Of a DNA stretch of 64,000 bases, positions 22,116 to 64,000 are shown in pieces; positions within the stretch are counted from its first letter, which is position 1, and each line of letters opens with the position of its first letter. Made by a program: the position numbers and the translations under genes. The DNA is taken from assembly GCA_960531495.1 (NCBI GenBank), contig OY482851.1, forward strand, positions 26,610,033 to 26,674,032, in the 5' to 3' direction. The notes under the pieces are model-generated. The model was not told the DNA's origin, did no database searches, and was given only the letters and a program-made list of their open reading frames with translations. Source of the DNA: Zeus faber (lineage: Eukaryota; Chordata; Actinopteri; Zeiformes; Zeidae).

Positions 22116-22123
22116 GCCATATG

Positions 22124-33568: not shown

Positions 33569-33570
33569 CG

Positions 33571-33645: not shown

Positions 33646-33650
<5 letters not shown>

Positions 33651-38700: not shown

Positions 38701-40761
38701 TTAACTTAGAAGGAAATCCCCCCATCCACTTTTTTTTGTATAAAAGGAACCGGCACTTATTGTCCCATGTGAAAACATCTAGGAGCTCTCAGCAGCTTTT
38801 AGAGGTGTGGGATGCTGCCCCAGGGAACTTTTCCTCTTGAGACACAAAGGCTTACTTGTCTTAGTTGTGTTTGCATGTGCGCTGCCCATGTTCATATGCA
38901 GCAGCGTATGCACTGAATTAGGATGAGAGGGCGTACAGACCCAGTAAGCTTGATGCTGCTAAATATAAGCAATTACAGTGATTCCAACAGCCTCGGGGAC
39001 TGGACATTAAGTTTACAAGCGGTTTTAAAGACCTGGTTCATTGGATTTTATCTGCGCTAATTGGGTTTAATATATTCCATCCCAATGAGCCAGCGGCATA
39101 CAGGTCATTGAAGTTCCATTCGCCATCTCCGCTCCCTCACGGAACTTTTGACAGCATGAAATGACAATCCGCCCCTGCGCGCATCTCCCACGTCAAAAAG
39201 TAATGAGACTGTGCTGCTGGAAATATCACTACAAAGCATCAGGCCCTGCTCCGGCGCTGACTGCACCTTCAAACGGCACTGCCTGCCAGCTCGCCTGTCT
39301 TGCCTGTCTGCTGCGGGAAAGGAAAAAAAGAGAAGCGAACAAAAAAACAATCCGAATGAGAGACGCCGAGAAACGGGGAAGCTCCCTGCGCTGAGACGAG
39401 CGAACACATCGGGGCCTTTCATCCTGAGAGTGATTAGCCATCTGAAACATTTTAACCCACCACCGCCAGCCCCACCATCCCCCATTTGAGTATGTTCCTC
39501 AAATGAAAGAGCTCCATTCGGGGGGGAATGTGGTTCTTGCTGGGAAGTGCCAGTGATCGCTTCTCTGATTGTGGCGTCGCTGACAAGGCTGGTGTGTCTC
39601 GAAGCTTTGTAAGCGAGGCTTTTTGCAACAATAAGCCACACCACCACCCCCGCCGCCCCCAGCTCCCGCCCCCCACCCCTGTCTGATCTACAACCAAAGG
39701 CATAGGGAACGTTGCTTTGTGCATAAATACTGAACTAATGTAACACGCTAATAGGCACTGATGCTGGCCTAATGCATCCCAAACTCCATGAATACAAGTA
39801 TAGTATGAATAGATTGATAGAATTACAGCATAGGCTATACAGTATGTAAGTGGTGCTTGGTGGTTGAGAAATGATGTCAGATTGCATTATTTCTTTCGGT
39901 GGTTCTTATGTACTGAATTCTCCTGTGTTCTTTCAAATGTACCAAATTAGACATCTCTTGGGCTTCAAAGTGGAGTTACGGGCGGCGTCCGACCCCTTCC
40001 TTTGGAATTTGCACAAACAAAGTCTTGCTCAAGGCCTTGTAGCACTTTGACATATTGGCGAGGAATCATCTCAAACCCCTTTCACTGATATGAAACATCC
40101 CAGTCGTTGGAGGGGGAATTGTATTTGGGGGGAAGACAGGAAAAAAAAATGGCCCAGGAGTATGCTTGAAGAGTCAGTGGAGACAGGGGGCGAGATGGGG
40201 GGAGTTTGAAGGGTAGCAAGGCAGAGATAGAGACAAAAAAAGGCGGAAAAAAACTCCAGCTCATAAAAATCAGTATTATAACAACATTAATTGATGCTGC
40301 TGAGTGCCATATGCAGCACCATATGGAAACGCCGCCCCAGAGGCCTGCTATAATAGACAGCCAGCGGCGGGGCGCACAACTTGGCACGTTTACAAACAAG
40401 GGACGTCCCATTAATATCAGCAGCTCAGACGGAGCAGGAGACAGTGAGGGGTGATGGAGAGACACTGAGAGGGAAAGGGGGAGGGGCAGGGTAAAGGAAG
40501 GGAAGAGAGGGAAGGAAAGTATCTCTTATCCTTGTTTCCCTCATCACACATCGTTTGTACAAAAAACAATACTATATTGTTCTTTTGGGATCTTTGCTTC
40601 TCTATACAGGTCGGTTAATTACTGCAAAAAAACTGTCACTCCTGCCACAGCGCCCCCCCCCCCCCGAGCCTGGATGTACAGCTCCACATAGGCTTGAAGC
40701 CGAGCTGGGCGTGCCTCTCCATGTTGCCGAGGCAAAGCACGGCTTGTTTCCGACAAATGTG

Positions 40762-40764
<3 letters not shown>
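35721..40764. other. Unique non-coding (intronic) DNA with enhancer-like blocks
   Basis: No gene is supported; long frames at 35802-36380 (+), 38201-38725 (-) and 39105-39647 (-) lack domains. Enhancer-like blocks by eye: 36190-36400 (ATAATTTGATTAGTGTTATT then AATCAAGTGG), 36610-36960 (TCAATTGAGATG, CCATAATTGTGCTTGC, TTACTGAAGTAATTTTC) and 38960-39130 (GCGCTAATTGGGTTTAATA). A 19-base poly-G tract lies at 37847-37865. Confidence 0.35.
37847..37865. repeat. Poly-G tract (19 G)
   Basis: A G run preceded by GGGGTGGTGGGGGAGGAGGGG, an extended G-quadruplex-prone segment. Confidence 0.95.
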
Positions 40765-40840
<76 letters not shown>

Positions 40841-40848
40841 CGAGAGAG
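40765..40848. repeat. (AG)n microsatellite
   Basis: An AG run of about 84 bases with two GCGAG interruptions near the right end. It is a homopurine tract. Confidence 0.97.
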
Positions 40849-41558
40849 TGGGGGATTGAGGGAGTCAAACACGGAGAGATCCGGGTGGAACTGAGTTGTC
40901 AGCCATTCTGTTGGGTCTCATAGAATGTGAGGGGAAACAAGATGAGAGTACAGCTGTTTCCTCCGTGCCGCCGAGGGAGGCGGATGAAGAGACGGAGAGC
41001 CAGAGAGCGGGAGAAGGAAGATGAAGAGGGAGGGAGGGAGGAAGAGTGAGCTCTCCGCTCTGTGATGTGCTCTGATGTAGCTGCAGCTTTAGGTCAACTG
41101 CTGCCAGTGTTTTGCGCTCATGTTTCGTCTCGTCTCCCTGGTGCGCCACTAAATTATTCACCGCCCGAAGACATGCACTCTGGGTGCCTCCTCCCTTCCC
41201 TGTCTCTGTTCCTGCGCTCTGTCTCTCTCTTTATCTCTCTCTCCCTCTCTCCCCGGCTTCCCATCTCTGATGGCTTGTTTCGGAGGCACTGAACAGAGGT
41301 TTTTCTCCCTGCTAGCTGGTTAACCCCCCTCCACTCACCTCCCTGCACTCCATCCACCACCCACCTTTCATCACAGACTCCATCTCTTACACTCCTCCTT
41401 TCATCCTTGCTCATCCCTCAATCCCCTCCTCTCCCAGCTGGCAGAATGGAGGCGCAGCTTTTTTTTTTTTTTTTAAGGAAGAGGCAGCCAGCTGTTAACA
41501 TCTTCTGCTCTTTCACTCTCATTTGTTATTATCCATACCGCAGTCACAGAGTGGGCTT
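40849..41558. other. Non-coding DNA, purine- then pyrimidine-rich
   Basis: The first part (40920-41050) is strongly purine-rich (GGAGGGAGGGAGGAAG) and the second (41180-41440) is pyrimidine-rich. No gene was recognised. Confidence 0.4.
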
Positions 41559-42637
<1,079 letters not shown>

Positions 42638-42664
42638 TCTCTCTCTCTCTCTCTCTCTCTCTCT
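42638..42664. repeat. (CT)n microsatellite
   Basis: A CT run that ends in CTACAG, mimicking a splice acceptor. Confidence 0.93.
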
Positions 42665-42793
42665 ACAGGACTCTCTGCCTCTTCCCTGGCCCTCGGTGCA
42701 GGCTGGAGCTCGGTAAACGGCATCTGTGGCGCTCATCACATTTCTGTCTTGAGGAGAGGAGAGAAATAGGGGGGGAGCCAAGCTGTCTCTGTG

Positions 42794-42905
<112 letters not shown>

Positions 42906-43049
42906 TGTGGCTGTGCACGTGCGTGGATGTGCGAGTCGCGTATGAAAAAATATCTCTTTGTGTGTGTCGGGTGGAGAAGATTGGTCGGAGAGCGAGAGCG
43001 TGTGTGAGTGAAGAGGAGGAGGGGAGAGGCGGGGGCGGGGTGGGGGGGG

Positions 43050-43420
43050 GACTAGCACTACAGAACGATGCCCGGAGGCTCAATCTGTTCCTCGCTGAGC
43101 TACATGAGTGTGCGAGGCGGCAGCGCGGGCCGCAGGGAAGCCTCTGCTCGCTCCATCAAACTGTCAGCCAGCCAGCGGAGCCGCGCAGGGGAGAGACTCT
43201 CGGCTGCCCTCGAGGGCCAGTTCAAGTCAACATCCCATTTCCTTGCCGTTGCCTCGCCTAATTTCTCCTACGCAGCCGACTTTAGGATATTTCTCTACCC
43301 GGCGTCCAGCCATAGACGCAGCTGAGGGGCCACGTCAAAACAGAGGGAGGCGCAGATGGGTCGCGCGCCGTTGCGTATTTGCGCGTTTCGGCCGAGTGGG
43401 GGAGTGAACAAAACGACATG
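43050..43420. promoter_or_regulatory. CpG-dense block, possible CpG island or alternative promoter
   Basis: CpG dinucleotides are frequent here (GCGAGGCGGCAGCGCGGGCC; GGTCGCGCGCCGTTGCG; TTTGCGCGTTTCGGCCG), in contrast to most of the window. Just upstream lies GGCGGGGGCGGGGTGGGG (43029-43047), an SP1-like GC box, and no TATA box is obvious. An 85-codon + frame (43068-43325) overlaps it without a known domain. AUTS2-family genes are known to use internal promoters, so an alternative start is possible, but nothing in the sequence proves transcription. Confidence 0.35.
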
Positions 43421-44389
43421 AATGGCGTAAATCGGTGTTGTTGTTTTTTTCCCCCCATTTCTCATTCCCTCTCACCTGGGCGCCCTGTTTTTCTAGCAGC
43501 ACTACATCCATTACACAATCATGTATCCTCCCAGTCCTTGCAGCTTTTTACGTGTATATTTATATTTTTTCCCTTCCTGTCTGGGTTTAATAAATGCTTC
43601 CCGCTCCATGTTTTTATTACCCCCTCCCAATCCCTGGCAAACACCTTGCGAGCATCATCCAGTAGTCTGCCAGACTGAACCCCCACCACCACTACAACCA
43701 CTCCTTACCTCCATCCTAGAGCAGAAAGTGGAGGGATACCTCATTGGGAGGCACAAAACAGTTTTAACAATTTAGTGAGAAGATGGGGGGAGGAGGGGGG
43801 TTCCATTTTCCATCTTCCATCTTCCATTCATCCAATCCACTTCTCCACCTCCAACACCTGCACTTCCCGCGGAGGCGAGCCCGGGCGGAGCACTGCCAGG
43901 TCCCAGCGCTGTTTACTCGGACTCTGGGCAGCGTAAAAAATCTTGCTTAGCTTGGCCTCAGATTAGGACTGTATCTCTCCTCACCCCCTGCGCTTGATTT
44001 ACACGGCCCCCGCTGACTCCTTCACCTTTAAGTGTGTTGGCTGTGAAACGACCAGGGGGCCCCTCCGTGTTGCATCTGGCTAATGTGAAGACCACTGCTT
44101 GGACCGTCTGTTTCTGTCCTCCAGTTTACCTTGGTTTTCTATCCTTTCTCTCTCTCTCTCTCTCTCTCTCCCTCTCTCCATCCCTCCCTTTCCTCCTCAA
44201 GGGAAAGGAGAAAGGAGCTTGTGAAAGGAGCTTTTTTTTCTCAAGCCCGTTCTCTATGTGTTTGCACAGTCTACTAGAGGTCCCCAGCTCAAATATCACT
44301 TTGCGCCAGAGCCTTACTTAGGCCTCTTCTTGTGGTCGATAATATTTCTCCACGGCAGAGCTTAACCCCCCCCCCCCCCCGCCCCTCTT

Positions 44390-44436
<47 letters not shown>

Positions 44437-46300
44437 GTCTTTATCCGTCTCTCTCTTTCCCTCCGGAGCCTCCGTCTTCACTGAGAGGATCGATACTCTC
44501 CTAATCCAGAGCTCCTAGTCTGACCTGGGGTAATCAGCTGACTTCCCATGCTGCCTGGCGGTGGGGTCGAGGGTCAAATGGCTGTATAGATTTGGACCCT
44601 TGATCAAATAACTTTGCTCGGTGGTGCTTTAAGATACAAGTAGAGGGGTCAAGAGCATTTGCTTGATATCTTTTTTTCTTTTCCCCCTCTCCCTTCCCTC
44701 TCTGTCTCCGAGGTCGGCGGGGTTGTAGAAAGCAGCGATGTTATTTGAGATGTGTTTGCCCATAAAAAACGCTCCTGACCTTCTGGGTCCCGGAAGGCGG
44801 TTTTACATTGTACGTAGAGCTGTTGTAGAGTTGTTGAGTCGGGGGGAAGGGGATAAGCAAGCGCTGTTTGGTTGTTGTTAAAAAGAAAATTATTTTAGTT
44901 TTTGTTCTTCGTTTGTTTTGAGGGAGGTTGACAGCGTAAGGGCAGGCAGTGCGGTTCTTGAAAGTCGTGCCGACGAAGGACTTTACCCAGCTTGCACTCG
45001 GCCTCAAAAGGCCAAAGCAAGACCCATGTGTTTACCTAAGAGGGGGGGGGGCATTGGGAGGGGGACTGGCAGGGGTCTCTGCCATTGATCCAGAGGCTCC
45101 GCGAGGTGCATCCCCAGCAGACTGGCCGCTGTGCTTATATCCCACACCTCATCCCGGCATCCGCAGGAGGGAAATTGCAGACGGAAATTGATGTTGTTCC
45201 AGTAGTATCAGGCACTGTTCAGGTCCTCGACTGTCTAAATGGGCCATTACCCCTCCTGTGCTCTGGGCTGGCAGAACCAAGCTTATCAGACCTCCCTTTC
45301 TTCGCCACCACAAATCCTTCAGTTCGACGGCCTCAGAGAAAGTGCTGGCTTGATTTGAGTCATCCATCTTGTCAGTTCGGAGATGTCTAAATTCTTGCAT
45401 CCTCGACAAGACATACAACAATTATTAAATAAGGTTTATTCCAATTTTACTTTTCTTATTATTCTAATGTCAGCACGGCTCCAAATGGACGGGAATTTCA
45501 ATCATTGATAATTGATTTTGTGTTTTCCAGCCATACCAGTTTAATGCCATCAATGATAACATCCTTTAATAATCGTCTGTATACAGCTGCAGTTAAGTGA
45601 GTCATGTCTTCCAAAACAATGCGTGTCTGTAGTCTTGTAGTCTCATTATACTGTAATTTCAGACTGAGGGAGAGGGAACAGGTTTTGTTTCCTTTGCCTG
45701 CTAACATTGGCTTGGCATTGTGTGGAGCTGTAAGAATCTATCCTGCCCAACATCCTAAAACTCATTTGTAAATGATGAATAGACTCCTGTCTGCATCAAA
45801 TCATTGGTGATGATATTACAGTCACATTAGTGATGAGTAAACTTCCTACTAACATCTCATAAGATTCTATAAGCACCATGTGTATTCATTGGAAATACAT
45901 TGTGCATCATGCACCGTGATGTATTACCTTCGTGAATGTCGTTGGTAAGTAAATCCAGATATCAGAGTAATGCAAACATACCAAACCATGCTACTATGTC
46001 CAAAAAACTGTGAACAGGGCTGAAGGCATTCTCTGGGCTGTGGTGTTGATTTTGGGGCTCATGGGTTGAGTTTTTATTTTCTTTATTTTCAATATTTTCT
46101 GCACTTCCTTATTTAGTGCTCCTTTACTGTGATTTTAAACCCAGATCTGCAGGAAACCCAGGTGGGTGTTTGGCCAAAAGGCAAATATGGAAATGCACTG
46201 CCATTTTTGATATTTATTTCCTCAACACATTTTATTCATTGAATTTATTTTCAAGGTAACAGACAATGAGACTTCAGCTTGCTCTGCGCATATATAATAT
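43421..46300. other. Unique non-coding DNA with short CT and C runs
   Basis: CT runs at 44147-44178 and 44394-44434 and a 15-base C run at 44366-44380. The block 45430-46250 is AT-rich and unremarkable. No gene is supported. Confidence 0.4.
44366..44434. repeat. Poly-C tract followed by (CT)n
   Basis: A C15 run (44366-44380), a short GCCCCTCTTTCTTT spacer, then a CT run of about 41 bases. The whole stretch is pyrimidine except for one G. Confidence 0.93.
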
Positions 46301-46317
46301 ATAGTAATATAAAGTAA

Positions 46318-46604
46318 TATGAGCGTTCGATTTCGAACTTCGAAATCACAAGCAGGTTCGCGATTCTCCCCATAATTTGGGGAGTGGGTAATATTGTCGC
46401 CATATCGGGGCCGTCAAGATCCACTGGTAAACAAATACAGTGTAAGCTGCGAGGTGCGGGGCCCTCCGCAGTTTTAGCTGCAGTTCCCGGCTCCAAATCG
46501 ACACATCCTTCAACGCACAAGCCACCCGCCCACCTGGCACTAGGGCTGCAGAAACTAAAACCGAATAGAATTTGAATATTACAATAAACCCTAATATAGT
46601 TCAA
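46318..46604. mobile_element. hAT-like element fragment
   Basis: The left side reads GTTCGATTTCGAACTTCGAA and the right side CTAGGGCTGCAGAAACTAAA followed by CGAATAGAATTTGAATATT. Both are typical of sub-terminal and terminal sequence of short fish hAT elements. It directly abuts a LINE coding fragment at 46605, so it may have inserted into it. Boundaries and target duplication are not resolved. Confidence 0.4.
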
Positions 46605-46760
46605 TATAAGCTCATCCAGTTTGTTGCACAGTGAACACACATTCGAGAGAAATATTCCCGGTGGGCGAAGTCCGCGTCGGTGGAGATACACAAGTGCGCC
46701 TGCGCATCTACCTCCCCTCCGGCGTTTCGCTGTGTGTACAAGGGGGATTGCGCCTTTGAC
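46605..46760 (-). pseudogene. LINE endonuclease-domain 5' fragment, minus strand
   Basis: The minus-strand frame contains KRRRGGRCAGALVYLHRRGL followed by IFLSNVCSLCNKLDEL. The run resembles the start of the apurinic-endonuclease domain of CR1/L2-type LINEs, which begins with a basic arginine/glycine-rich lead and a SIxLANVxSLxNKxDEL motif. Only about 50 codons are recognisable before similarity stops at the neighbouring hAT-like sequence. No reverse transcriptase follows, so the copy is a truncated fossil. Confidence 0.65.
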
Positions 46761-47400
46761 CAGAATGTCCAGTAATTCCACAGATGTGGCGATGAAAGTG
46801 GGAAATCAACCCGACATCATGGAATGTCCTCTAGTGCAGAGATTCCCAACCACCGACTCGCAGACCATGAGAACATGGGCAGGATTTTTATAGGAGTGAT
46901 CTGCTCCACAGCAGAGCAGCAGCAGGAAACAGAGTAAATGAAATACATCCAGAGTTTGTATTTGCTTTGTTTGGATAAAAGATCGCTCTGATCGGGCTGC
47001 AGAGGTGCAGGTAGTTATTTGCCTTTTACTACCAGTGTTCCCCTCTGAAATAACATCGGTTTTTCCGTGCAAATTTTGGTGAGTAACTTAAAAGTAGTGT
47101 AATTAGTAACTTATTGTTTATTATTCTAATGTCAAGTTTTGCTAAAGCTCTAAACTAAAGTGTATTGTTTAAATACTCTCATTATATTATATATATATAT
47201 ATTTTTTTGCTGTTATTTATAATTTTTAATTTTCAAATAAAGTTACTTTTTGAGAAACAAGTGTTTTTCTTTACAAATCAAGACTTGATAGATAGCAATG
47301 GCAAAGTCGTCAGTGCTGAAAAAAATACATGTTTAAATCCAAAATTGAATCGAATCGTGACGTTGAAATCGACAGTCAAATCCAATCATGACACCCGTGC
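46761..47400. mobile_element. Mixed remnants of DNA transposons
   Basis: At least two element ends are visible. GCAGAGATTCCCAACCACCG at about 46835 resembles the CAGNGGTTCCCAACC end of fish/vertebrate hAT elements. AATTGAATCGAATCGTGACG with ATGACACCCGTG at 47344-47400 resembles an inverted GGGTGTCATGATT-type hAT end. The partner ends are not clear, so boundaries are not assigned. Confidence 0.35.
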
Positions 47401-47500
47401 TATATATATACACACACACACATACAGTATATATATATATACACACACGTACAGTATATATATATATATATGTATGTATGTATGTATACATAGTATGTAT
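47400..47500. repeat. TA/CA/GTAT low-complexity repeat
   Basis: Short TA, CA and TATG runs with two ACAGTATATATATATA cores. Confidence 0.9.
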
Positions 47501-50040
47501 ATGTACAGTATGTGCATGTATAGTATATGTGTGATATCTTGCCGCACTATGCAGGGCCATGATCAGTATTCAGGCAACAGTCCCCAACAGACTTTGACGC
47601 CACGCCAGCGCTCACGTCGCCAGGCGTGCTCCCTCCTCTGTTCCTCTTTCTGTCTCCGAGGCAGAATGTGAGTCTTCTCCGAGTTTGACAAGTGGAACTG
47701 TGTGATTAATTTGGCCAGTCGTTTTAATGTGCTCCGGGATGCGCAACGCTTATTGGCCCACCCCCCTCCCCTGCACCTCCTAGCACGTCTATTGGAATCT
47801 GGCAGTGAAAATGACCTGGTGTATGGAGACATCCGTTCACCCGCCCCCCCCATCCCCGCTTTCTCTCTCTGGGCTCTCATCCCTGCCTCGCTGTAGAGCT
47901 GAGCTCCGGGGTTAGTCTTGCGAGGGACGGGGGGGGGGGGGGGTGGGGGGCTCAGGTCGATGCCTGGATGTAGCCAGGGGCCACTGGCGGAATAAATCTC
48001 CTGTCTCTGAAGTGTTGAAAGCTGTGTAAATGCCAAACACATCCGTCTGATGTGCTAGGCGAGGGGGAGGGCCTTGTGGGGGGAGTGTGGGGGAGTGGGG
48101 GGAGGAAGGGAGGAAGGGAGGACTCCTGAGCTTGGGATGGGGAGGGCAGGCGGTGGAGGGGGGTGGATTCCTAGGTTCGTGAGCCATCTGATGTGAAGCC
48201 CTCGTCGTCCCTCTTGTCACCCCCCCTTCCTGGATTGCGGTTGCCAGGTGCAGATGTTGCATCCCGTCCCTGTAGAATCAGCCGGGTTTGTTTTTTTTTC
48301 CTTTTTTTTTTTTTTTTTTCTTTTTTCCAATATATGGTGTATATATATGTTTATTGCGACGTCTGAATATCCATGAGAGACAGACCAATCCAGGGGGCTC
48401 GGCTCCTGTCAGCTGGCTGAGCAGGCGGCACGTCTATCTGATTTTTAACAATGTCCCTTCAGACCAAACACCAACATTATTTTTTTTCTGTTTTGTTTCA
48501 AGAGCTACAACTTGAGGATGCAGTTATACTGGGTTCACCGTGGCTTTGGAGAAAATCCCTCTCCCCATGAACACGGTGGAATAAAGGCACAGTGCTTAAT
48601 TCCATACCTTTCCGCATGCAGACGTACATACATACATTCATATGTACAAATACACACACTGAAGCACGGAATCAAGCCGCTCTCAGCCTGGTCTAATGGC
48701 CCAATAGTAAATCACATGCAGTACTTACACGTAGTGCTCCAGCAATCCCACAGTCTCCCATTCCTTCATCTTTATAGCCCCTCGCCTATCCCTGCACCGT
48801 GTTCTTACTGTTGTTTTGTTCTCCCTTTCCCACCCGCCACGCTCTCCCACTGCGCACGATCTCCCTCTCTGAGCCATAGCTAGTGTGACCCTTTTTCACG
48901 CTCCGCTGCAGTGACTGCCTCTTGCAGGCGGTTGGGACGAGGACCACGCTGCGCCGTTTTGATGTTATATTTCCTCCCCGTCCCCGGCTGCGTTGCGGCG
49001 GCCGCGCCGGGCTCCGTCCTCCGACACCGTGGCTTACTGCGGCAAGCCGGGTAATAAACAGAGCCACAGAGGGTTTAGACCCACCTGTCCCCGGGAACAG
49101 GAGCGAACCCGCAACCCCTTTGAGATGGATGTTGTGCAAAATAAGCACAGGGGGGTGCAAGGAGAATCAATTGGAATTATTCATATATTAATATATGATT
49201 GTTAACCACGTTGAACCAGAGATGAGCATTATTTTGCATGTGTGATTCTTAAAAAAAAAATGACAGAGTGCCGGGGGGGAATAAATGGCTGGTGATTACA
49301 GGTTTGTGATGAGCCAGTCGCGGGTGGCATAGAAATGGCTGACAATTAATTTTCCCCAGACTCCTAAGGCTGAATAGGAGTTTGATTGACAAGGAGCCTA
49401 AGCCACTTCCTCTTTCTTAATGTCCTGCTCTCTGGAAGAAAAGAACAGCCAAAGCCGGGATATTAGGGGTTTACAATTTGTCTTAAGGGAGAATTTTTAT
49501 TATTTTTTTAATGTCACATTGCAAAATAAATGCTTCCATTTTCCTGATTATACTCTCTTGTGCTATCTATGTGCCGAAATGCACGGGCTCACAGTGAAGA
49601 ATTTCCTTCCAGCACAATAACCACTGTTTGTAAAAGGGAAAAAAAGCCGACAAAATGTACTCTCAACAGATTTCTGATTTCTGCAATCTGTGTATGTGTA
49701 ATCTTTGTATTTATTCCACTGTTATTTAAATAGACTTTGAACAGTCCCAAAAAACAACTAAAAGGAAAAGGAAACTTCGATAGGTGCAGCTTTTTTTGAT
49801 GCGACCTCCGGTGTGACCTCCGGTGTGCATACGTTGTTGTTCCGGGGTTTATAAGAATGCTTCTGTCTGGGAGCACAACGGGAGCTCCGAGGTGTGCCTC
49901 TCGACAGACAGCGGCAACAAAACCCCACAATGAACTGAAAGCACTACATCGCTCAGCTGAAGCCTCCGTGAGTGTGTAGTCCCGCTATATCCCCTCGCCG
50001 TTACAGAACAGAAGGAATCACAGACAGTGGGAAGCTTTTT
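47501..50040. other. Unique non-coding DNA
   Basis: Contains a 15-base poly-G tract (47929-47943), a G-rich stretch to about 48175, and a T-rich run (48288-48327). Block 49140-49400 is enhancer-like (GGAATTATTCATATATTAAT, GACAATTAATTTTCC, TTTGATTGACAAGG with a PBX/MEIS-like TGATTGACA). No gene is supported. Confidence 0.33.
48288..48327. repeat. Poly-T-rich tract
   Basis: T runs broken only by three short C insertions. Confidence 0.92.
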
Positions 50041-50075
50041 GTGTGTGTGCGTGCGTGCGTGCGTGCGTGCGTGCG
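50041..50075. repeat. (GTGC)n microsatellite
   Basis: GT units that pass into about seven GTGC units. Confidence 0.94.
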
Positions 50076-50206
50076 CTCACTCGCTCAACCTCTCTTGGCC
50101 ACCAAGCCCTCACGCTGATTGCTCTCGTTACTTAATTATACATTTGGACCCACCAAGCTCACAACAAAGGGCCGCTGAGCTACCATTGACCCAGACCCCT
50201 CCACCC

Positions 50207-51782
<1,576 letters not shown>

Positions 51783-51812
51783 ATTCCCTTGTCTCTCTGT
51801 TTTGTCTTGCAG
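51783..51812 (+). promoter_or_regulatory. 3' splice acceptor of the microexon
   Basis: A C/T-rich tract from the CCCTTG block through TTTTGTCTTGCAG lies directly before the exon. It is a strong acceptor by eye. The matching donor GTAAGA starts at 51843. An exon of 30 bases is too short for ordinary exon definition, so a strong pyrimidine tract is what one would expect. Confidence 0.65.
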
Positions 51813-51842
51813 TGTGACAGCGAGAGTGACATTGACGACAAG
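51813..51842 (+). CDS. fbrsl1: Internal 30-bp coding microexon of an AUTS2/FBRSL1-family gene, probably fbrsl1
   Basis: Directly visible: a pyrimidine-rich stretch (about 51786-51810) ends in TTGCAG, followed by 30 bases that read CDSESDIDDK, followed by the donor GTAAGA. The exon is exactly ten codons, phase 0 at both ends, so skipping it would keep the frame. From memory of the family, human AUTS2 carries CDSDSDQEEK and human FBRSL1 carries CDSESDLDDK just before a conserved SEKLF segment; the FBRSL1 form differs here only by I for L. These proteins are nuclear and associate with variant Polycomb PRC1 complexes. The peptide is very acidic, and both serines have an acidic residue three positions on, which is the casein kinase 2 pattern. 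No neighbouring exon (the following SEKLF exon or the preceding serine-rich exon) was found in the window, so both flanking introns must be long. The alternative is an auts2a/auts2b paralogue; a chance match is unlikely because splice sites, length and peptide all agree. Confidence 0.68.
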
Positions 51843-53625
51843 GTAAGACTGCCTTTTCTTGTGTTTATTTGCCTGCGCACATGAAATGGCTGAGGCTTGC
51901 GAATAACAAATTTGAGCTCTCGACAAAAGGGAGGGAGGCAGCTACGACGTTGTCGTTAGCGACAAGAGACGAGGCGCGATAGACAATCGGCCGGTCCCAC
52001 CGCCGCTGATCATTTGCATTTAACAAAGCCAGAGACACTGACAATGAAAACACAGCTCACGAATGGATGGTTTTTATCCGCGGAATGTTACTTTTTCAGG
52101 GTTTTGGGTATAAACGGATGCCGCAATTATTATTTTGGGAACGCTTTAAGGCCGACAATAAAAGAGCTAAATACGATATTATAATCATCGCTGTAGTATT
52201 TGTGACATACTGCACTGAATCACATTTTGTATTGTCCTGCAATAGACTACTTTGGCCATGAATGCCAAATTGACTAGATAGCAAAACGTAGCGTGCATCA
52301 AATCAAACCATGCCATATTAGCTGTGGTGCCACCCGTTATTATCCATCAGACAGTTTAACAGATGTAGCCTATCAGTATTACCAATTTGATTACTGTGTA
52401 CTAGTTTATCGCAGTCTCGAAGGTGGTTGGCTGGCGGCAGCCACCCAGTTACAAGATGAAGCGCCTGTGGGGAGACTCGCGCATCCTAATTCCCCCACAG
52501 TTTACCAATTACTCCCTGGTAAATGAATGAGATAGCATGTCTAATCTCCTGTAAGCTTAGCTCCCAGTTCTGTGGAAATGTCTGCGGCTCTCCCTATAAA
52601 TAATACATTGATAGCGGCCCCAATTTGCATTAACTGTAGCCTGGCAAGTCAATAGGCTTTTATCTCGTCATTGAAGCGAGAAGGAGGCTGCCTGATAGTT
52701 GACATGACAGCGAGAGGGTAGCAGGCCTGTCAGTCTCCATACGCCTCCCTGGCTTCACGGTGGGAGAGAGAAAGAAGGAAGGACGGTAACAGGAGGAGGA
52801 ATGGAGGAAAGAGAAATGGAGGATGTCGGAAGGAAGGAGGGCGACTCAGTTTCCTTCCATTCATCCGACCTGACATTGTGACTTACTTGACGTTAATCCT
52901 GTCCTGTCTGGTACCTTCTTCCTGCATGCTCCGCTTGTTTGCTACAGGTTATTTTGTTATCGTTGAATATATCTCTGTAAATATAGCTCTTTGAGGTCTA
53001 ACGGTAAGTATATCTTAAGACCACTATGGATGTTAGCGGCCCACTCTAGAACAAAAGCATTTGGAGCCTTTCACGAATGAAGTCATACTGAGTGGGCCGC
53101 AGGGCCTACGGAACATTTTAAACTGCTCATCAGAATGAGGGCTGTGGTACAATTGCGCTGTTATGCATTCTCAAAGTTATTCCTGAAAAGGGCCTTGTGC
53201 TCACGAATATTTACTCAACGCAAATGCGAGAGGCGTAGAAGGTTTGGGTAAAGGCCCAAGAAGTGCAGGTCCCTTTCATTTCCTCAGAGCCCATATTACC
53301 ATAATCAAGGTGATGAGAGTAGCAAAAAACAAATCTATTCCAAATTGCCAGGGAAACGAGGAAAGAGGAGGGGCATCTTGACAAGCCATCGCCAAGCGTG
53401 GAAAAAAAAACATGCTTGTTTATAATTGGTTTTCCAAAAGGAAAAAGACAAACACTGTCATTTGTAATTGCCCACACTCGGAATAACACAGTGCCGTTAA
53501 TTTGCAGTAACGTTTGACTCAAACAGGTGCCAGCTTCTCCAACCAAAACAAAGGCCCCTTTCATGTCAGATTAGCGGCCATCTGAACACACATAATGTCA
53601 GGATTTTACAAATTAGCTCAATTCA

Positions 53626-53673
<48 letters not shown>

Positions 53674-54106
53674 CTCCTGTGTGCCCCCAAGGGGGCAATC
53701 AGTCAGCATTCAGTTTGAATGAAAGGTACATTATGAGAACATTGCTGTGGCAGGCCAGTTGAAAGGGCAACATGTTGTGAAACACTATTTCATCCAAAGA
53801 GATGCTTGAGCTTAACATCCACTGAACGCTGACTTCAGTTGATTGTTCTGAAGATATGCCTTTGAAGCCTATCAATCTGGTATTCTAATTCCTTACCAGA
53901 CTCACTGTGGGCGTGTGTAGTCACAATTTCCACTCATTTCCATCATGTTCAACAATGAGGAGTATTTAAAGTAAAAAAGAAAAAAAGATGGCAGCTTTGA
54001 ACTACCCTAACCTCACTTATGACTGCAGCCCGAGGGAAACTCATGACAATTAGGCATTGCGTACAGAGTATAATGTTGTCTCTGTGTCGCCTTTTTTGCA
54101 ATAGCA
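51843..54106. other. Intron downstream of the microexon
   Basis: Begins with the donor GTAAGACTG. Block 52510-52700 (TCTAATCTCCTGTAAG, ATAAATAATACATTGATAGC, CAATTTGCATTAACTG) is enhancer-like. A TA run lies at 53628-53673. No exon corresponding to the expected SEKLF-containing segment was found. Confidence 0.4.
53628..53673. repeat. (AT)n microsatellite
   Basis: An AT run with one GT interruption. Confidence 0.95.
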
Positions 54107-54897
54107 ACACTGAGGGGTGAACTCACAAAAGGATTGCGTGGCTTTTGCGGCCGCATAACTTGCGCAAATAAAACAAAAAGCATGCGTCTAATTCTCAAAG
54201 CACCTGCAAAGGGTGAACTGTACGCCTAACTGCGCTGCCACGCAAATAGCATCTTGGTGCGGCGGTGCTATTTGCACGTACTTAAATTATGTAGTATTCA
54301 TATTTTTGGAGCAAAATTGGCCCCTTTTTTATGCAAATGAACCTCGGAAAACCCTTGCAAACAAATGTCTAATTCACAAACCCCAGCGTTAATAGCCACA
54401 CACAGTTATAGTGAAATTATTACCATCTGTAGAGAGCTGTTGGTAACTGTGCTGGAAAAAAAAGGCAGACCTGTCACCATTTGCACTTGAACACAAGGGA
54501 AATTTTAGTATATACAGTACACATTTTATTTATGCAATAAATTTACTCTGTAGGAAGACTTGGAAGTTGGCAGTTTTATTATGGATTTACTCATAGTATT
54601 TAAATGTTTTATAGTCACTGCACATAAACCTGAAAATACCTAAATGCTGGTAAATTTAAATCTAAAACTATAGCGTGTTTGAATCCACGCATCTCCACGA
54701 ATCCGCCACCAGACGCAAAACAAGGGCAAATTGCACTCAGCGGCAAAACTTTATGGGCGTGTTTGTGTTTGTCATATCATTAGCGCAATATCTTTTGTGA
54801 ATCGGACGTTGAGATGGGGCCAATAGCGCAACTGATGCGCAATTCATGGTGCTATTAGCGGCCACAATCCATTCTTTGTGAATTTGCCCCTCAGTGT
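54107..54897. mobile_element. Inverted-repeat DNA transposon without transposase (791 bp)
   Basis: The left end ACACTGAGGGGTGAACTCAC is mirrored by the right end whose reverse complement is ACACTGAGGGGCAAATTCAC; similarity continues inward (CAAAAGGATTGCG... against CAAAGAATGGATTGTGG...). Both ends then carry GCGGCCGC/GCGGCCAC and GCGCAA/TTGCGC motifs. The middle holds further copies of the end motif (CTAATTCACAAACCCC at about 54369, CTAATTCTCAAAG at about 54187), so the element is built from repeated end-like sequence. No transposase frame is visible. A target duplication could not be fixed by eye. Confidence 0.75.
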
Positions 54898-57800
54898 GTT
54901 TGAGCATAGCCATGCTAAATTAGACGCTTATGAAAAGACTAACCACATGCTGGAGAAATAGCTCCACAACAGAGGGACTGTGTGTACACAACGGTCTGTT
55001 TGAGGCCTCGTGGTGGAATATGAGTATCATTAATTTGAATGCCATCCAAACTGTTTAAGTCAGTTTGATGTCATGGTCTGCGGTCTGTCTGTATTTATAT
55101 CAACCAAAACATGTGTTAGCCATTTACTCTTTCACTCGAAGAATGATGTGGAGACCAATGGCTCTTGTGTGACATTGATATCTGTAATAACAAGATGTCA
55201 CAAGGGCAGTAGATATAATTCTGAATCATATATCGCAACATACCGGCCAATTTGATGTTTAATGTGACTCATGAGAATTCTTTTTTTGGGTCCTTTTAAT
55301 GGATTGACGCACTACATGAAATGTATTTTCCAGCATGCTCCAGTATTTGATTATGTGGCTTTTTAATGCTCTAATGAAGTTACAATCAATTACCGAGAAA
55401 TGCATTATCAGTTTCGAGATAACTCTGTAAGCCTTACAAAAGCCCACGGCAGATGCAAAAGGTCAGACGCGGCCAAATGTTTGATCAGCTGCCCATGAAC
55501 GCTGCCGCCGTGCACGGCCACTGTGGACACCCTCCTTCCCCCGCCTCACCGCACTCCATCAGGAAGTCCTAGCAACTTCTGACATGTCCGTCTGAGGTAC
55601 TCCAAGTCAAGACGGTCATTTTCTTTCACCGGAGAGGGGAAAGGGAGCGGGGGGCTTCTCTGTTTGCTCATATACTCTCCTGAAGTGTCATTCTATCTCC
55701 ATTAGGCCCTACTCTCCCATCCTTGCCAGCTCCTCCAATTTCCCTGCATTCTCTTCGCCTCTGCAAATAACAGAGCGGCTGTCTGGGTCTGAATTGTTGC
55801 AGCAGTGGTGGCCGCTAATAATCTCCGGGGCGGCTTTACGCGCACCTTAACACAAAAGGCCTCATGTCAGGTGGGCACCCGGTACCACCCGCTACCCCGC
55901 CGCCGCACTCGCTGGCCGCCGAAAGAAAGGGACGCCGAGTTCAGCTAATTCTATTTGGTCCCATTTGCTAAGCAGTCACTCAGCAGGAACTATATCCAAC
56001 CTCCGCGGGTCCCTGGGGACCATTACCACATCCTGTCTGAAGGCTCTTTTATGGCTCCGTTGTACTCATCTGCCAGGGCAGCGCTCGGGCTTTTGATTGA
56101 CACATTAATTCCTCCTCTCCCCCTTATCTTGCCGCCGCTTGCCGAGCGAAGGCCATATCAACGGGTCGGAGCGCCTCTCCCGGCTTATCGGTAATGGCTC
56201 GTCATCCAGTGGTATCCTCCCAGGTGATGTATCGGGGGCGGGGGAGCCAAATCGGCCTCCCGAAGCGCCCACGGCCAAAACGATATGATGAGCATGTAAA
56301 TGCAAAATCGCTACCACTGACAGTTACTCATTCTTCTCATTCTCATTTCCGACGCCCCCTCCCCGAGGAGAACGACTATAACTCTACGCACAAATTCAGG
56401 TGCCCTCTACCGCACCCCATTCCAAGAATCATATTCAATATCAAACGGGCCACCCACCAGGATGCCTGCATCCCTAGCAGGTTTTGTCTCGTATTTTGAT
56501 TTGTTTTTTATGGGCGGGAAAAAAGGACAGGCCTAATTTTTCGACACAAGTGATGATCCGTCCTCATCTGCTTAATGAAATTAGATTAAGTGCACCTGGG
56601 AAAGAGCTGAGGAAGCAGAATGCCTCACTACTTCCTTTAATCTAAAACCAATTTGCCTGTAATACCACGCCCCCCATCCCCCCCTCCAGCCTGGGATTCG
56701 CCGGCCCCAATTCAAAATGGCGGAGGAACGAGATGAGACCAGAACTGACTGGTTGCATTCAGCTCCCACAGGCGCTGTGAAATTAGAACTGACACAGGCA
56801 ACACAGGCCTTAATATGGAGTTGTCATTTTGCTCCCCTTGCTTTTGTCTTCCTCTCTGTCTTTTTCTTTTTCTCGTCTCTATAGTTTTCCGTCCGTCGCC
56901 ACCTACATTCACCTCGTTTTTTTGTTCTGATGTTGTGTTTTTCATTTATTTGTGCATTTTTGTGCGGTGCTGAAAAATGGCGTCACATTTACAGTTTGTT
57001 TCATCATCTTTGCTGGCTAAAGATTTCCAATCCACAACGCGGAGTGGAGACGTCCACACACTGCTGGTTCCTGGAAGGTTTTCCCCCTGAGAGTTTTTCC
57101 TTCAAATATTAACTAGTTAATTTATTACTATTAACTACACCATGGAATGATGTAATGATGCATTGATTAGAAACAAGTTTCAAGTTTGTTTCTGGGAAAT
57201 CAGATTTTCGTTCAGTTCATGTGGGTATTTCACATAGAGTTTAATACAACATTGTGGCAGTTTTGCCTGCCACACGCCACCTGAGTGACATTTTCAGGGC
57301 CCTCTGACACAAAGACACAGGCGATGGGGTTGAAAACACAGCAGTTTTATTGTCGCTAGGGGGCAAGGTGGAACAAGCCTGCAGCAGATGTAAAACATGT
57401 CATGACAAGGGCTCCCCTCGTGTGTGTGGGGGGATGGGGGATTTACCTGTTGCTGGTTGATTGCTTTAACGAGCAATAGGCGTACAGACACCCTGGTCCC
57501 GGGCCCAATTACCTAGACCCAAGAATGGTGTGGCTGCTTAAACCACACCACAATGACGCAAATTGCACAATTGACATAATCTTAGATGCTGAATTGGGTC
57601 ATTAATCTAAAGCGTTATAAAGTTATACTCCATCACTATCTCGTAGGACTAGGACATAGTTGCCGGTAGTTGTCTCTTTGTGATTTCCTGGCTTTGTAAT
57701 GCATTTGACTGATTTCCAATGAACCATCATTTTCGCTCATGCTGTTTTGGAGCATTCTGTGCTCAAACGTCCAAACAGCCCTTACGTTACAATGCCAACA

Positions 57801-58136
57801 GGACAAAATACATTCTAATGCAGTGCTATAACTGGGGAGGGTTTTTTCTTTCCATCAGCTGGTATCCTGATGGCATCATACTCTGCTCTTGTTATTAAAC
57901 TGGAAGAGTCTGGAAAAGCTTAGCGAAATTTCACTTATATTGAGCTGTTTGCAGCATTCTCTCATACATGGTCATCTCCAGATCATGTGAGATTGTGGTT
58001 GTTGTTGTTGTCTTTTTAGATACATCTGTTGTGCATTTGGTGCACAAATATGCGGTGATCCCGGAGCACATTTGCATAATGTCTCAGATTCTGAGAAAGA
58101 GGCATTTATTCTTTACATCATGACACATACAGTTAT
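54898..58136. other. Unique non-coding (intronic) DNA with enhancer-like blocks
   Basis: No gene is supported. Enhancer-like blocks: 55260-55480 (TACAATCAATTACCGAG, GGCTTTTTAATGCTCTAATG) and 55930-56330 (TCAGCTAATTCTATTTGG, TTTTGATTGACACATTAATT, ATGAGCATGTAAATGC). Also 56570-56660 (GAAATTAGATTAAGTGC). Segment 57200-57430 might be an unrecognised dispersed repeat, but no ends were found. Confidence 0.33.
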
Positions 58137-58460
<324 letters not shown>

Positions 58461-58554
58461 GGTACTTCGGCGTGTAACTACAGTTTGCCTGTAAATGTGT
58501 GTACGCGTGTATTGCTGTCCGTCTGTTTGTAAGTGTGTCAATGCGTGATTTTAT

Positions 58555-58566
58555 ATGTGTGTGTGT

Positions 58567-58621
<55 letters not shown>

Positions 58622-58643
58622 CGTGCGTGTGCGTGTGCGTGTG
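58555..58643. repeat. (GT)n with GTGC ends
   Basis: A GT array bounded on both sides by GTGC/GTGCGT units. Confidence 0.95.
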
Positions 58644-60815
58644 TACTGGGAGCGTGTTCAGCGGAGAAATGCAGCCTCAGTGTAAGTTTGGAAGAAGAGG
58701 CACGATGACAGAGAAAGGCTTGAAGCCTCGGCAGGGCCAGCCAACAGACACAGCCAACTGACATCAGCAAAGATGGCCTGTCACTAGCGATGCGTATCAC
58801 GCTGTGAGGAAGGGCACGCGGAAAAGGCGTCACTGGTGTGGCATTCAGTAGCCTGCTCCAGATTCCTCCTTAAAGGTTAGCATCGATGTTAGCATCGCGG
58901 ATGAAAATAGAAGCTTTGCTGCTCGCGAAACAATGACAGCCTCTCAGGGCAGGAGAGGACCACGCTGTGATGTTCCTTCACTCACTGTCGCATCTCTCTG
59001 ACAGAAATTGTTTGCATTGGCAGGGAGTGTTAATGAAACAAGTATTCATTTTCTTTGTTCTGTGAGAATCATAACGTGCAAACACTCTTTTTTACTCTTT
59101 CTTCAAAACAACCGCGCACTCCTCACTCTGCTCGCAAAACAAAAACCTGTCGCTATTCACCTGCGGTCGACAGCATGTGATCAAAGTTATTGTAGATATT
59201 ATTGTTGCATGTCAAGTTTTGGTTTTTGTCTCGCAGCTGCCCTGACCTCATTGCTTTTTTTAAAAGGTTTTTCTTCCAACGCCATTTTCCTACCTGCGAG
59301 CCCCGGTCCCAGTTAATAGCCGGGAGAATTTTCTGCAAAGCGCCAGATGAAATGGTCGATTTCACAATTTTCTGGAGGTCTCGTCAGTTTAACGACACAG
59401 TTATGCAGCGGGCCGCCGCGTGGCGTGGCAACAACAGACAGCTGTGTTGAGTGTTGAGTGTTACGCCTTGAGAATTCACGCTTCACGATGAGCTGGATCT
59501 GAGCTTCAGGACGCGGTTCATACTGTGTCATAGAATCGTACTAGTAGACTGCAACAATAATTTCGCTTGGGACCCTCAGACGAGGTGCCACATATTTCCA
59601 AGCGCATCCTTCTTTGTTAGGGTCCGTGATAGAGCCGAAATGCTTTTGAGTTTATTTTAGAGGCAACACCCCAAAAGGAGAGATCTAACTGTTCAGTCAC
59701 ATGAGAAAGAGGCATTTTTAAAACCAGGCGGCTGACCTGACCGAACCCCTCACGTCCACTCTACTCCGAATCTGTGATGCAGGCCATCCACTGAGTATCA
59801 TAAGGCCTGTGTTTGAACAACAATCAAAGTACTATATACATTTTTCCACATGAGTAATAAAAATAAAATGGAGTCCACATTGGGCGCACATGTTTATCTG
59901 CAGAGCAAGAGACTAAATAAAAGACACAACTGTTTTTGTGTGCGTATATGTAAGAATTTAGTGTTTTTGATCATGCATAAACATAATGCCTAAGTGGCTT
60001 TTTATTCAATAAACATGGTCTGACTGTAATTATTTACACATTTTTCCTGGCTGGAAATGCTCTGCAGGCCTTGTGTGCGTTTGGCGCACAGAGGCTCACG
60101 TCCCTCCCAGCCCTTGGCTTGTCTGCGCAAGCCTTCCAAATACAAGGAGACTCGCTCCACAACAAATGGTATACGCAATTAGGGACAAATATAGAATTCC
60201 CTGCTGTTATTAGGAGTCTGTGCCATCGCGGATAATGTTTCCCAGAAGAATCGTCTCTTTCTCTTTGGCCAGGAATACATCAGTAAAAACGAGCTCAGGT
60301 CCGCCGTGGCTCTGAAAAGAATGTTTAGAGAGCCTCAAATCCCTTCACAGACAAAGAGTCCAGTCAGCCAAGAGGCAAGCTACTCATATACTTTTTTTTT
60401 TTTGCCGTTTATTTATTTATTTATTCATTTTTATTTTTTTAGGGGGAAAATCAACAAACATTAACAGAGAGGAGTCATAAACCGCCATTATTTCTCAACG
60501 CTTCACACTTTGTCAGTTTACCAAATCTTTCCCCACTGAAGACAGTATGCCAACTTCCAAGACCTCCATCTTTCATGTGACGGATGAGGCGATCTGTGGT
60601 GCTCATAATGGTGATGATGGACAGTAAAAGGCATGATGACTGTCAAGGACTCTCTCCCGCCCACTGAGAGAAAAACACTTCTGTCTTTCTTCTGCTGGCC
60701 ACTTGAGCATCTCCCACTCAATCCAAACACACAGATGCCTGTGGACGGCTGGCAAGCGCCAGACCTCACGTCCCGCAGGCCCCCAGCACTTCTCTGGCTC
60801 TGGGGGGAACATTCC
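58644..60815. other. Unique non-coding (intronic) DNA
   Basis: No gene is supported. A small tandem motif GTTAGCATCGATGTTAGCATCG occupies about 58876-58898. A TTTATTTA-rich stretch lies at 60390-60440. Block 59820-60060 is AT-rich. Nothing else was recognised. Confidence 0.4.
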
Positions 60816-60830
60816 GTGTGTTTGTGTGTG

Positions 60831-60890
<60 letters not shown>
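60816..60890. repeat. (GT)n-(GTGC)n-(GA)n compound microsatellite
   Basis: GT units, then about five GTGC units, then a GA run, in direct succession. Confidence 0.96.
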
Positions 60891-60893
<3 letters not shown>

Positions 60894-61562
60894 TGGAGAG
60901 CGGAGAACCCGGGAGAGCACACTGAGATCAGAACCAAAACATACAGAGGCCAGCTGCCTTCAATTAAGGCAGAAACCCCCAGCCATCGCAGACCCACATA
61001 CACAAAACCAGCTTGCTTTGAACTGCACCAGCCGCAGTAAAAAGGTACAAGGCCTGAAAGATTACGGGGGGTGGGGGGGGGGGTATTCAAAGGGGGCTCC
61101 ATAAAACTTAACAGGGGTATTTGGGGGCTCAAGGGGCAGTGGGAAGCAGGTACTAACAATCCCTGCCACTCATGTTCATTTGCCAGTTATTTTCCCTTCC
61201 CTCTTTGAGGGGGCTTTAATGAGTTCACACACCTGGCTTCTCCTCCAAGTTAACTGTAGAGCTGGCCCCGCCACTTTGGTCTTTATCGGTGCTACAGATA
61301 TGTTTCCCAGTCACTAAGGGGTTCATTTGTGTAATCGAAGTTGATCTGCATGTCGCTTTGGGCCTTGACAAACAGCAGAAGCAGGCCTAGGCAACACTTA
61401 CCGGTATGAGGTTTGGAGCCACCGCCAGAGAATGCCATTAAAACTGTCCCCCTACCGAGCGCCACAGACACAGGCGGTATGGGCATCCATTAAATTAATT
61501 TGACTTCATTAGCACAGACCTACCATGCCTGGAGTGCCCATAGAGATGCTGTAGGGGGGGTG

Positions 61563-61563
<1 letters not shown>
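60891..61563. other. Non-coding DNA with a G-rich patch
   Basis: G-rich at 61064-61082; otherwise unremarkable unique sequence. Confidence 0.4.
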
Positions 61564-61629
<66 letters not shown>

Positions 61630-61710
61630 CGTGTGTGCGTGCGTGTGTGTGTGGAAGGTGTGGAAGGTGTGTGTGTGTGTGTGTGTGCAGGGGGGGGGGG
61701 GGGGGGGGGG
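61564..61710. repeat. (GT)n array ending in poly-G
   Basis: GT run, GTGC variants, a duplicated GTGGAAGGTGTGGAAGGTGT, more GT, then a 21-base G run at 61690-61710. Confidence 0.96.
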
Positions 61711-61934
61711 ACTGTTGATTGGCATCAGACCCCGCACTCTGAGGAGAGCGAACACATGGCAATGACAGGCGGAATATGGCCCCAGTTCTGACACTGGGAC
61801 GGCTGCCAAACAAAGGCAACATGCGTCACTGGCTTTAGGGGAGCTCAATCAACACCCGGTCGGAGCATTAACGCCATGCATGCAATGCCACAACAGGGAG
61901 AAGGCTCTGTGGGTTGCTGGGTGGCATAGCAGCC

Positions 61935-62078
<144 letters not shown>

Positions 62079-62413
62079 GTGAACATGGTCATGTGATGTG
62101 ATACAGTGGCTCTGCCTACTACCCAGTTGAGCTACTGCAATCATCTTTTTATGCACTGTTACTGGTTATGCAGGGCAGACATTTTATCTTAGAGCCCATT
62201 GCATTTTTGTTATTGCTTTATAACATTGGTGTATGTCATTTTAGATTCGATTAGATTAGATTCAACTTTATTGTCATTGCACAAAGTACAAGTACTTAGA
62301 CAACGAAATGCAGTTTAGTATCTTACCAGAAGTGCAAGAGAAGCCGTAAAGTGCTGCGTATGTATAAAATATACAGTCAGTATGAATGATATTTAAATAG
62401 AGTTAACAGTAGT

Positions 62414-62640
62414 GGGTATGGATTTACTAAATATTCACAGTATGACAGAACAGTAGCAGTATTGACAAAATGAATATGAATGTACTACAATATTTACAGT
62501 ATGAGCAATATTAACAGAATGATGAGCAGTATTTACAGAATGGATATGGATGCGCTAAAGTATATACATTAAGACCGGTATTAGCAGTATTAACAGAGTG
62601 AGTATGAATATGCTACAATATATACAGTATTTACAGATTG
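62414..62640. repeat. Degenerate tandem repeat in the LINE 3' untranslated region
   Basis: Four imperfect copies of a unit containing GTATGGAT/GAATATGAAT, then CTAC/CTAAA, then ATATTTACAGTATG begin near 62414, 62472, 62543 and 62602 (spacing about 55-72 bases). It lies between the last LINE coding remnant and the 3' tail. Confidence 0.6.
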
Positions 62641-63456
62641 ACATTAGTATAGGCGGTTGTATAAATATAAATAGAAAACAATAAAAAGTAGTGTGTAAGG
62701 TTAAGGTGCAAAGGTGCAATGTGCAAGAGTTGGTGACAGCTGAGGGGAAGAAGCTGTTCCTGAACCTGCTGGTCCTGGAACAGAGGATCCTGTAGCGCCT
62801 GCCAGAGGGGAGGAGGGCAAACAGCCTGTGACTGGGGTGAGAGGTGTCTCTCGCGATGCTGCATGCCCTCCGCAAGCACCGCTTGTGCTGGAGAGCCTCA
62901 ATCGCGGGGAGGTGGAGTGTCGCTGATGTGTTGGCCCATTTTCACCAGCCTCTGCAATGCTTTCCAGTCCGCAGCAGTACAGTTGCCATACCAGACTGAG
63001 AGGCAGTTGGTGAGAATGCTGGTGAATCGATGGTGCAGCGGTAGAAGTTCACCAGGATCTGTGGAGACAGGTGGGCTTTCTTCAGTCTCCTCAGGGAGAA
63101 GAGACACTGGTGAGCCTTCTTGACGAGGGTCGAGGTGTTGAGGGCCCAAGAGAGGTCCTCTGAGATGTGGACACCCAGAAACCTGAAGCTGGTGACACGC
63201 TCGACCGCCATCCCATTGATATGGATGGGGGTGTGTGTCTACTATGAGCTCCTTGTTGTCGGCGCACCACACCGCCAGGTGCTGGACCTCCTCCCTGTAG
63301 TCAAATGTGATAATGGTGTATGTCGTGAGTGAAGATGGAGTAGAGGAGAGGACTCAGTACACAGCCCTGTAGGACCCTGGTGTTCAGGCTAAGGGTTGAG
63401 GAGGTGAGGTTGCCTAATCCAACATGCTGGAGTCTGTTGGTAAAGAAGTCCAGTAT

Positions 63457-63900: not shown

Positions 63901-64000
63901 ACGTCCAGGGATACCATCAGGGCCAGCAGCCTTACGTACATTTATCTTGCTCAGTGCAGCACATACCTCAGTGGGGGAGAGTGTGAGGGACTGGTGGTCT

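Follow-up and report, generated by a model that had tools for sequence, protein, structure and literature searches.

In what seems to be a percomorph-like fish, thirty bases on the + strand at positions 51813..51842, encoding the ten residues CDSESDIDDK in phase 0 at both ends, very probably form an in-frame cassette exon of the gene fbrsl1, here called exon C, situated between two further exons of the same gene, exons A and 6. A third cassette of the set, exon B, lies in the same window at 37533..37562, and the splicing of these exons is expected, from the sequence and from the gene models of related fishes, to follow that of the relatives. By the window we mean the whole stretch of 64 kb that was analyzed, a + strand portion of a 36-Mb contig in an 803-Mb genome. 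The analysis was extended over 200 kb downstream and 40 kb upstream of it, and positions in these flanks are given on the window scale, with negative numbers before its first base.

Exon C has the sequence TGTGACAGCGAGAGTGACATTGACGACAAG, with tttgtcttgcag directly at its 5′ side and gtaagact directly at its 3′ side. A pyrimidine-rich tract ending in the 3′ splice site cag occupies positions 51790..51812 of the + strand, and the 5′ splice site gtaagact positions 51843..51850 of the same strand. Splice sites were scored with simple matrices, and both sites reach 10.8. At or above these levels, and counting the exon's own sites, stand 2 of the 3,936 GT dinucleotides and 26 of the 3,878 AG dinucleotides on the + strand of the 64-kb window. 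Moreover, the length is divisible by 3, the splice sites are canonical and the phase is 0/0, as expected of an in-frame cassette microexon. When the + strand of the window was searched for open phase-0/0 AG/GT pairs 9-81 nt apart in which each site scored at least 5, 19 candidates were obtained, some of them overlapping, and exon C ranked first. The third place was taken by exon B (37533-37562, GRLAAMALLK), which belongs to the same gene. In 148 listed fish proteins, blocks situated between exons 3 and 6 correspond to exons B and C and to no other candidate. The second-ranked pair (63095-63109, GEETL) finds no block match at the right place in these proteins. It was discarded as an exon together with the rest of the 17 candidates other than B and C, since for none of them does the exon 3-6 junction hold a corresponding cassette block; what they match best without gaps is dispersed and weak, or very short. 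The earlier note had described exon C as a 30-base exon with good splice sites, which its rank and scores confirm; it had also called it the only convincing coding signal of the window, and the presence of exon B makes this part of the description wrong.

The exons found in the flanks define the host gene. A tblastn search with an incomplete human AUTS2 sequence gave seven matches, five of which are exons of the AUTS2 family on the + strand, 69-86 kb past the end of the window; the remaining pair, with E 0.23 and 2.0, seem fortuitous. In order along the + strand, the gene comprises exon 3 (-16362..-16261, 102 nt), exon A (-9681..-9646, 36 nt, phase 0/0, SSTHSLSGRGYS), exons B and C inside the window, exon 6 (110314-110362), which starts in phase 0 and encodes VSDVGSEKLFSPTTPK plus one base, the proline-rich exons 7 (132900-133326) and 8 (134192-134451), the HX-repeat exon 9 (136650-136879), a further exon at 148538-148621, the Auts2-domain exon (149600-149846) and a final exon starting at 150496. 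Reading of the donors shifted three exon ends by one base. Between exon 9 and position 148538 there is a masked stretch of 7,500 bases, which probably holds some of the missing exons. Two features assign the gene to the AUTS2 family: the open reading frame (ORF) holding the 149600-149846 exon matches PF15336 with E 4.5e-33 and 115.5 bits (cut-off 23), and an HX-repeat exon (EHDLLRQ...HQHQHMHQHQHTHQHT) follows two proline-rich exons, the roles of the exons being those given in PMC9454499. Accordingly, the membership of the host gene in this family, proposed earlier from the letters of the window, is borne out by flanking exons in order on the same strand and contig. The sequence outside the window, where an unrelated gene would have spoken against the proposal, carries exons of the same family on both sides. 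With exon B counted, the introns measure 47,178 nt from A to B, 14,250 nt from B to C and 58,471 nt from C to 6, as calculated from the exon coordinates. In other words, the 64 kb that had been labeled a gene desert are intron of this gene: positions 1..37532 (+ strand) belong to the intron that runs from exon A, whose end lies about 9.6 kb upstream of the window, to exon B; 37563..51812 (+) are the intron between B and C; and 51843..64000 (+) are the first 12 kb of the intron before exon 6.

The host gene is most likely fbrsl1. The joined exons, with exons 10-13 missing, made a query of 897 aa; of the 7,970 candidates that were scored, 1,086 matched it with E no higher than 0.001, and the best 120 of these are teleost proteins named fibrosin-like 1, fibrosin-1-like or 'autism susceptibility gene 2 protein', or unnamed. 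Per segment, the joined exons are 86-89% identical to fibrosin-like 1 of the sea bass Dicentrarchus labrax, 69-85% to fibrosin-1-like of Danio and 61-81% to the Amia protein. The closest named proteins among the matches listed are thus those of FBRSL1, with many entries carrying the AUTS2 name given by NCBI. The comparison with human proteins is less uniform. Over exons A-C-6, 25 of 32 residues are identical in human FBRSL1 and 19 of 32 in human AUTS2; exons 4-9 alone give 104 bits with human AUTS2 and 29.6 bits with human FBRSL1 (best segment); all joined exons together are about level, with segments of 83.6, 63.9 and 46.2 bits for the incomplete AUTS2 sequence and of 80.5, 73.2 and 39.3 bits for FBRSL1. 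Similarity to the human sequences, as a sequence measure, does not settle the paralogue, and the pattern of scores would fit a mammalian FBRSL1 that has diverged in its proline-rich part. As to the names, 'autism susceptibility gene 2 protein' is the NCBI designation of many teleost fbrsl1 entries, and in UniRef the Dicentrarchus entry P0024 is fibrosin-like 1. Since P0024 bears both names, the AUTS2 label seems to be an error of nomenclature. A fibrosin-like identity had already been suggested from the ten residues; the protein comparison with flanking family exons, which had been proposed as a check, supports it, the nearest proteins among those listed being teleost fibrosin-like 1. Further downstream, an ORF at ~257.8 kb encodes a LEM domain (E 1.7e-9), and another at ~237.4 kb, with no accepted match in Pfam, was recognized by eye as what we take to be golgin A3. 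The two are presumably ANKLE2 and GOLGA3. On human 12q24.33 the gene order is FBRSL1-ANKLE2-GOLGA3. Between fbrsl1 and the next gene, at ~173.6-175.2 kb on the window scale, there is also an open frame of 536 codons that resembles, by eye, a Ty3-type integrase.

The behavior of exon C as a cassette was examined in the gene models of relatives. The fish sample consists of the 148 proteins mentioned above, drawn from the best 120 of 1,086 and the best 120 of 159 matches, each representing a 90% cluster; 12 entries were dropped, five without a recognizable exon 6 and seven without a recognizable end of exon 3, leaving 136 that span exons 3-6. By isoforms we mean gene models that the databases give for the relatives, as distinct from measured splicing reads. 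Exon C or a variant of it is present in 126 of these 136 listed entries and exactly its ten residues are absent from 10, a fraction that is not a skipping rate, since all fish queries contained C. The ten models without C come from seven species: three from Dicentrarchus labrax, two from Anarhichas minor and one each from Austrofundulus limnaeus, Aplochiton taeniatus, Gasterosteus aculeatus, Poecilia reticulata and Oryzias latipes. For Dicentrarchus, Anarhichas, Gasterosteus, O. latipes and P. reticulata, isoforms with and without C are both listed. More generally, the relatives' models keep or lack A, B and C each as an undivided block, and all eight on/off combinations are seen among the listed fish models, five of them (B, ABC, C, A and none) in Dicentrarchus labrax alone. 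The 11 listed isoforms of Danio contain A and C in five cases and C without A in six; C may therefore be near-constitutive in some fish, being present in all 11. RT-PCR in zebrafish gave products with and without exon 4, as reported in PMC5555464. Counting back from the HX-repeat exon 9, exon 4 of that study would be exon A and exon C would be exon 5; with this numbering, the presence and absence of A in Danio agree with the RT-PCR. The idea of an alternatively spliced cassette, which the earlier note had derived from the reading frame, thus finds support in seven other fish species, each with at least one gene model from which precisely these ten residues are missing.

The search for exon B started from a block, VQPAAVALLK, that stands between A and C in fish gene models and whose counterpart here was sought and found at 37533-37562, 14 kb upstream of exon C. 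This + strand exon of 30 nt, phase 0/0, has the sequence GGGCGGCTCGCAGCAATGGCCCTCCTCAAG, flanked by catctctttag on the 5′ side and gttagtgtgt on the 3′ side, and its product GRLAAMALLK is the counterpart of the VQPAAVALLK of percomorph fbrsl1 gene models. Among 137 open AG-30nt-GT candidates in the 61-kb A-C interval, it ranks first both in splice-site score and in identity (6 of 10 residues; the next best has 4). When the letters of VQPAAVALLK were permuted, six identities with 37533-37562 were reached by 37 of 200,000 permutations, and six identities with any of the 137 candidates by 29 of 20,000. Exon B, together with the frame of exons and the observation that insertions at one junction differ between lineages, is what the present analysis adds to the first reading of this DNA.

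The three cassettes differ in their distribution. CDSESDIDDK occurs letter for letter in at least 31 fish species among the matches listed, and six other forms were found by pattern; CDGGSDVDDK (Nerophis), CDSKSDIENQ (Gouania) and CDGESDIDDK (Triplophysa) fall outside the pattern. In a mammal-directed listing (best 120 of 1,069, three of them unnamed, obtained with a query that contained C), exon A is directly followed by C in 118 of the 120 entries, six of which have a variant exon 6 that was read by eye; the other two have other sequence there. These are FBRSL1 entries of colobine monkeys (P0168 and P0170), in which RLMALPSPADSGPA(R/K)WALETRQK stands before exon 6 and replaces exons A and C. 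Forms of exon B were recognized by pattern in at least 21 fish species, and by eye in Nerophis, among the matches listed; all of these species are, to our knowledge, percomorphs, with the taxonomy checked for Phyllopteryx. Exon B is absent from the listed entries of the percomorphs Nothobranchius (two species), Iconisemion, Oryzias latipes and Gouania, and was not seen in the listed entries of cod (not a percomorph, according to a taxonomy look-up), Aplochiton, Denticeps, Amia, cypriniforms, catfishes and osteoglossomorphs. Two further insertions were observed in the listed models. Six stickleback (Gasterosteus) models (P0041, P0042, P0061-P0063 and P0065) have an in-frame block of 23 residues, EAEMKCHLSEDDARNWARKDLIV, after exon A, and three models of the sucker Myxocyprinus asiaticus (P0104, P0106 and P0121) have 12 residues, IERKWSPWSNMR, at the same exon 3-6 junction, which would be either exon A in a longer form or one more insertion peculiar to its lineage. 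No counterpart of either was found between exons A and C on the + strand of this fish, with up to 45% mismatches allowed.

Other explanations of the two exons have to be weighed against these data. The 137 open candidates in the A-C interval alone mean that weak pairs are common, and exon C might in principle be no more than two splice sites that happen to flank an open 30-mer; yet it heads the 19 phase-0 candidates of the window, and its ten residues are those expected at this place, between its two neighbor exons, with letters identical in the fish species counted above. The flanking exons, in order and in phase, are decisive, so that the chance of such a coincidence is practically negligible. 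The case of exon B is less extreme. Four of its ten residues differ from the closest relative form, as against none in exon C and none in exon A compared with sea bass, and judged by its sequence it could be decaying. That GRLAAMALLK is a decayed or chance exon standing outside the gene in this species is nevertheless unlikely, as none of the other 137 candidates equals it in splice sites or in match, and both its phase and its place in the order between A and C are right.

The attribution to auts2a or auts2b instead of fbrsl1 draws on three observations: AUTS2 has a homologous ten-residue segment, many of the closest listed fish proteins bear the AUTS2 name in NCBI, and exons 4-9 alone score higher with human AUTS2, the joined exons being about level. 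Set against this are the identity over A-C-6, which favors human FBRSL1, the per-segment match to Danio fibrosin-1-like, the apparent slip behind the AUTS2 label, and the LEM-domain and putative golgin-A3 ORFs, which would fit the human order of FBRSL1 and its neighbors. In addition, the listed Danio isoform P0134 has 1215 aa, the same length as the cloned zebrafish fbrsl1-i1a, as compared with 1278 aa for zebrafish auts2a (both lengths from PMC5555464). An auts2 host is accordingly very improbable. A more serious alternative is that this fish includes exon C constitutively, as a short exon, and that models lacking it are rare or due to noise in annotation. Its strong splice sites and its presence in most spanning entries and in every listed Danio isoform are consistent with this; against it, the exon is frame-neutral, and seven species have models dropping exactly these ten residues, in five cases beside models that keep them. 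We regard a constitutive exon as somewhat unlikely, and a cassette exon of fbrsl1 remains the preferred reading.

As a cassette of fbrsl1, exon C would act on the linker between the basic N-terminal and the proline-rich parts of Fbrsl1. A, B and C measure 36, 30 and 30 nt with phase 0 at both ends, and each can therefore be skipped or kept without frameshift. If this fish splices them as the relatives' gene models suggest, the choice among A, B and C would change the linker: keeping C would add an acidic segment with five acidic residues and two CK2 consensus serines, and B a short hydrophobic, alanine-rich one. The two CK2 sites claimed earlier are correctly counted by the consensus S/T-x-x-D/E, a pattern only, at S3 and S5; human FBRSL1 has one. 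Six of the seven fish forms tested have two such sites and one has a single site, the three off-pattern forms being outside this test. In the mammalian listing, the commonest form, CDSESDGDDK, has two sites, and the human CDSESGPDDK, like CDSESGVDDK and CDSESGMDDK, has one. In AUTS2 complexes, variant PRC1 recruits CK2 (PMC9008325), which makes a link with CK2 plausible by analogy; that these serines are the functional point of exon C is a doubtful proposition, suggested by the consensus. Equally tentative is a broader idea, in which the exon 3-to-6 junction of fbrsl1 would be a docking place for frame-neutral exons, with A and C old, B gained in percomorphs and the stickleback and Myxocyprinus insertions added, and combinatorial splicing would tune the charge of the linker and the number of CK2 acceptors in each lineage.

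Searches of other kinds complete the description. Rfam gave no match at gathering score in the 64-kb window, and four window ORFs gave no match in Pfam at E up to 0.01; at 62555-63353, the minus strand has long open frames, with no Pfam match, that look by eye like a decayed retroelement. The ~630-bp surroundings of A, B and C showed no repeats within the 304 kb examined, and no PDB chain resembled the A-C-6-7 segment at E up to 1. CTCTCT occurs 14-20 nt upstream of exons A and C, no GCATG was found within 300 nt of A, B, C or exon 6, and nothing decisive emerged from splice-regulator motifs around these exons. A full-text search of the open-licence literature found no published AUTS2 or FBRSL1 microexon. 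The one paper with both FBRSL1 and microexon lists Fbrsl1 once, in the text available, with the code RI, presumably a retained intron (PMC8395343); the accessible text of PMC7686559 mentions auts2 and microexons in separate places.

AUTS2, a relative of fbrsl1, is linked to autism. FBRSL1 is itself a developmental disease gene, and its isoforms differ in location and in rescue ability, according to PMC7519918 and PMC12449339. A set of frame-neutral exons in the N-terminal linker of FBRSL1 would be a simple route to isoforms that are easily missed, with 60 coding bases in ~120 kb between exons A and 6. As exon B is seen in some lineages only, fish offer a natural comparison, if these exons are regulated. 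Exon C is present in the database gene models of relatives, and the finding is therefore ordinary as biology: it is a usual cassette-exon module of a known gene, and the mild interest resides in the lineage-specific additions at one junction.

Among known systems, the Srrm3/4-dependent neuronal microexons resemble exon C as tiny, frame-neutral inserts; that class spans 3-27 nt, however, as against 30 nt here, and the main text of the paper names neither fbrsl1 nor auts2 (PMC12626424). Human AUTS2 has an acidic ten-residue segment, CDSDSDQEEK, at the same place, but differs at more positions than human FBRSL1 over A-C-6. In human FBRSL1 (P0149 and P0155), CDSESGPDDK occupies the place of exon C, between SSAHAVSGRGYS and ASVGSEKLF, with one CK2 consensus serine instead of two; neither of these entries has a B between A and C. 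Finally, teleost fbrsl1 (Dicentrarchus labrax P0022 and P0024, Danio rerio P0097) differs in exon B, which reads VQPAAVALLK or close variants where this fish has GRLAAMALLK and which is missing from the 11 listed Danio isoforms, but shares with this DNA the block order 3-A-(B)-C-6, the residues CDSESDIDDK and, in its gene models, the cassette behavior.
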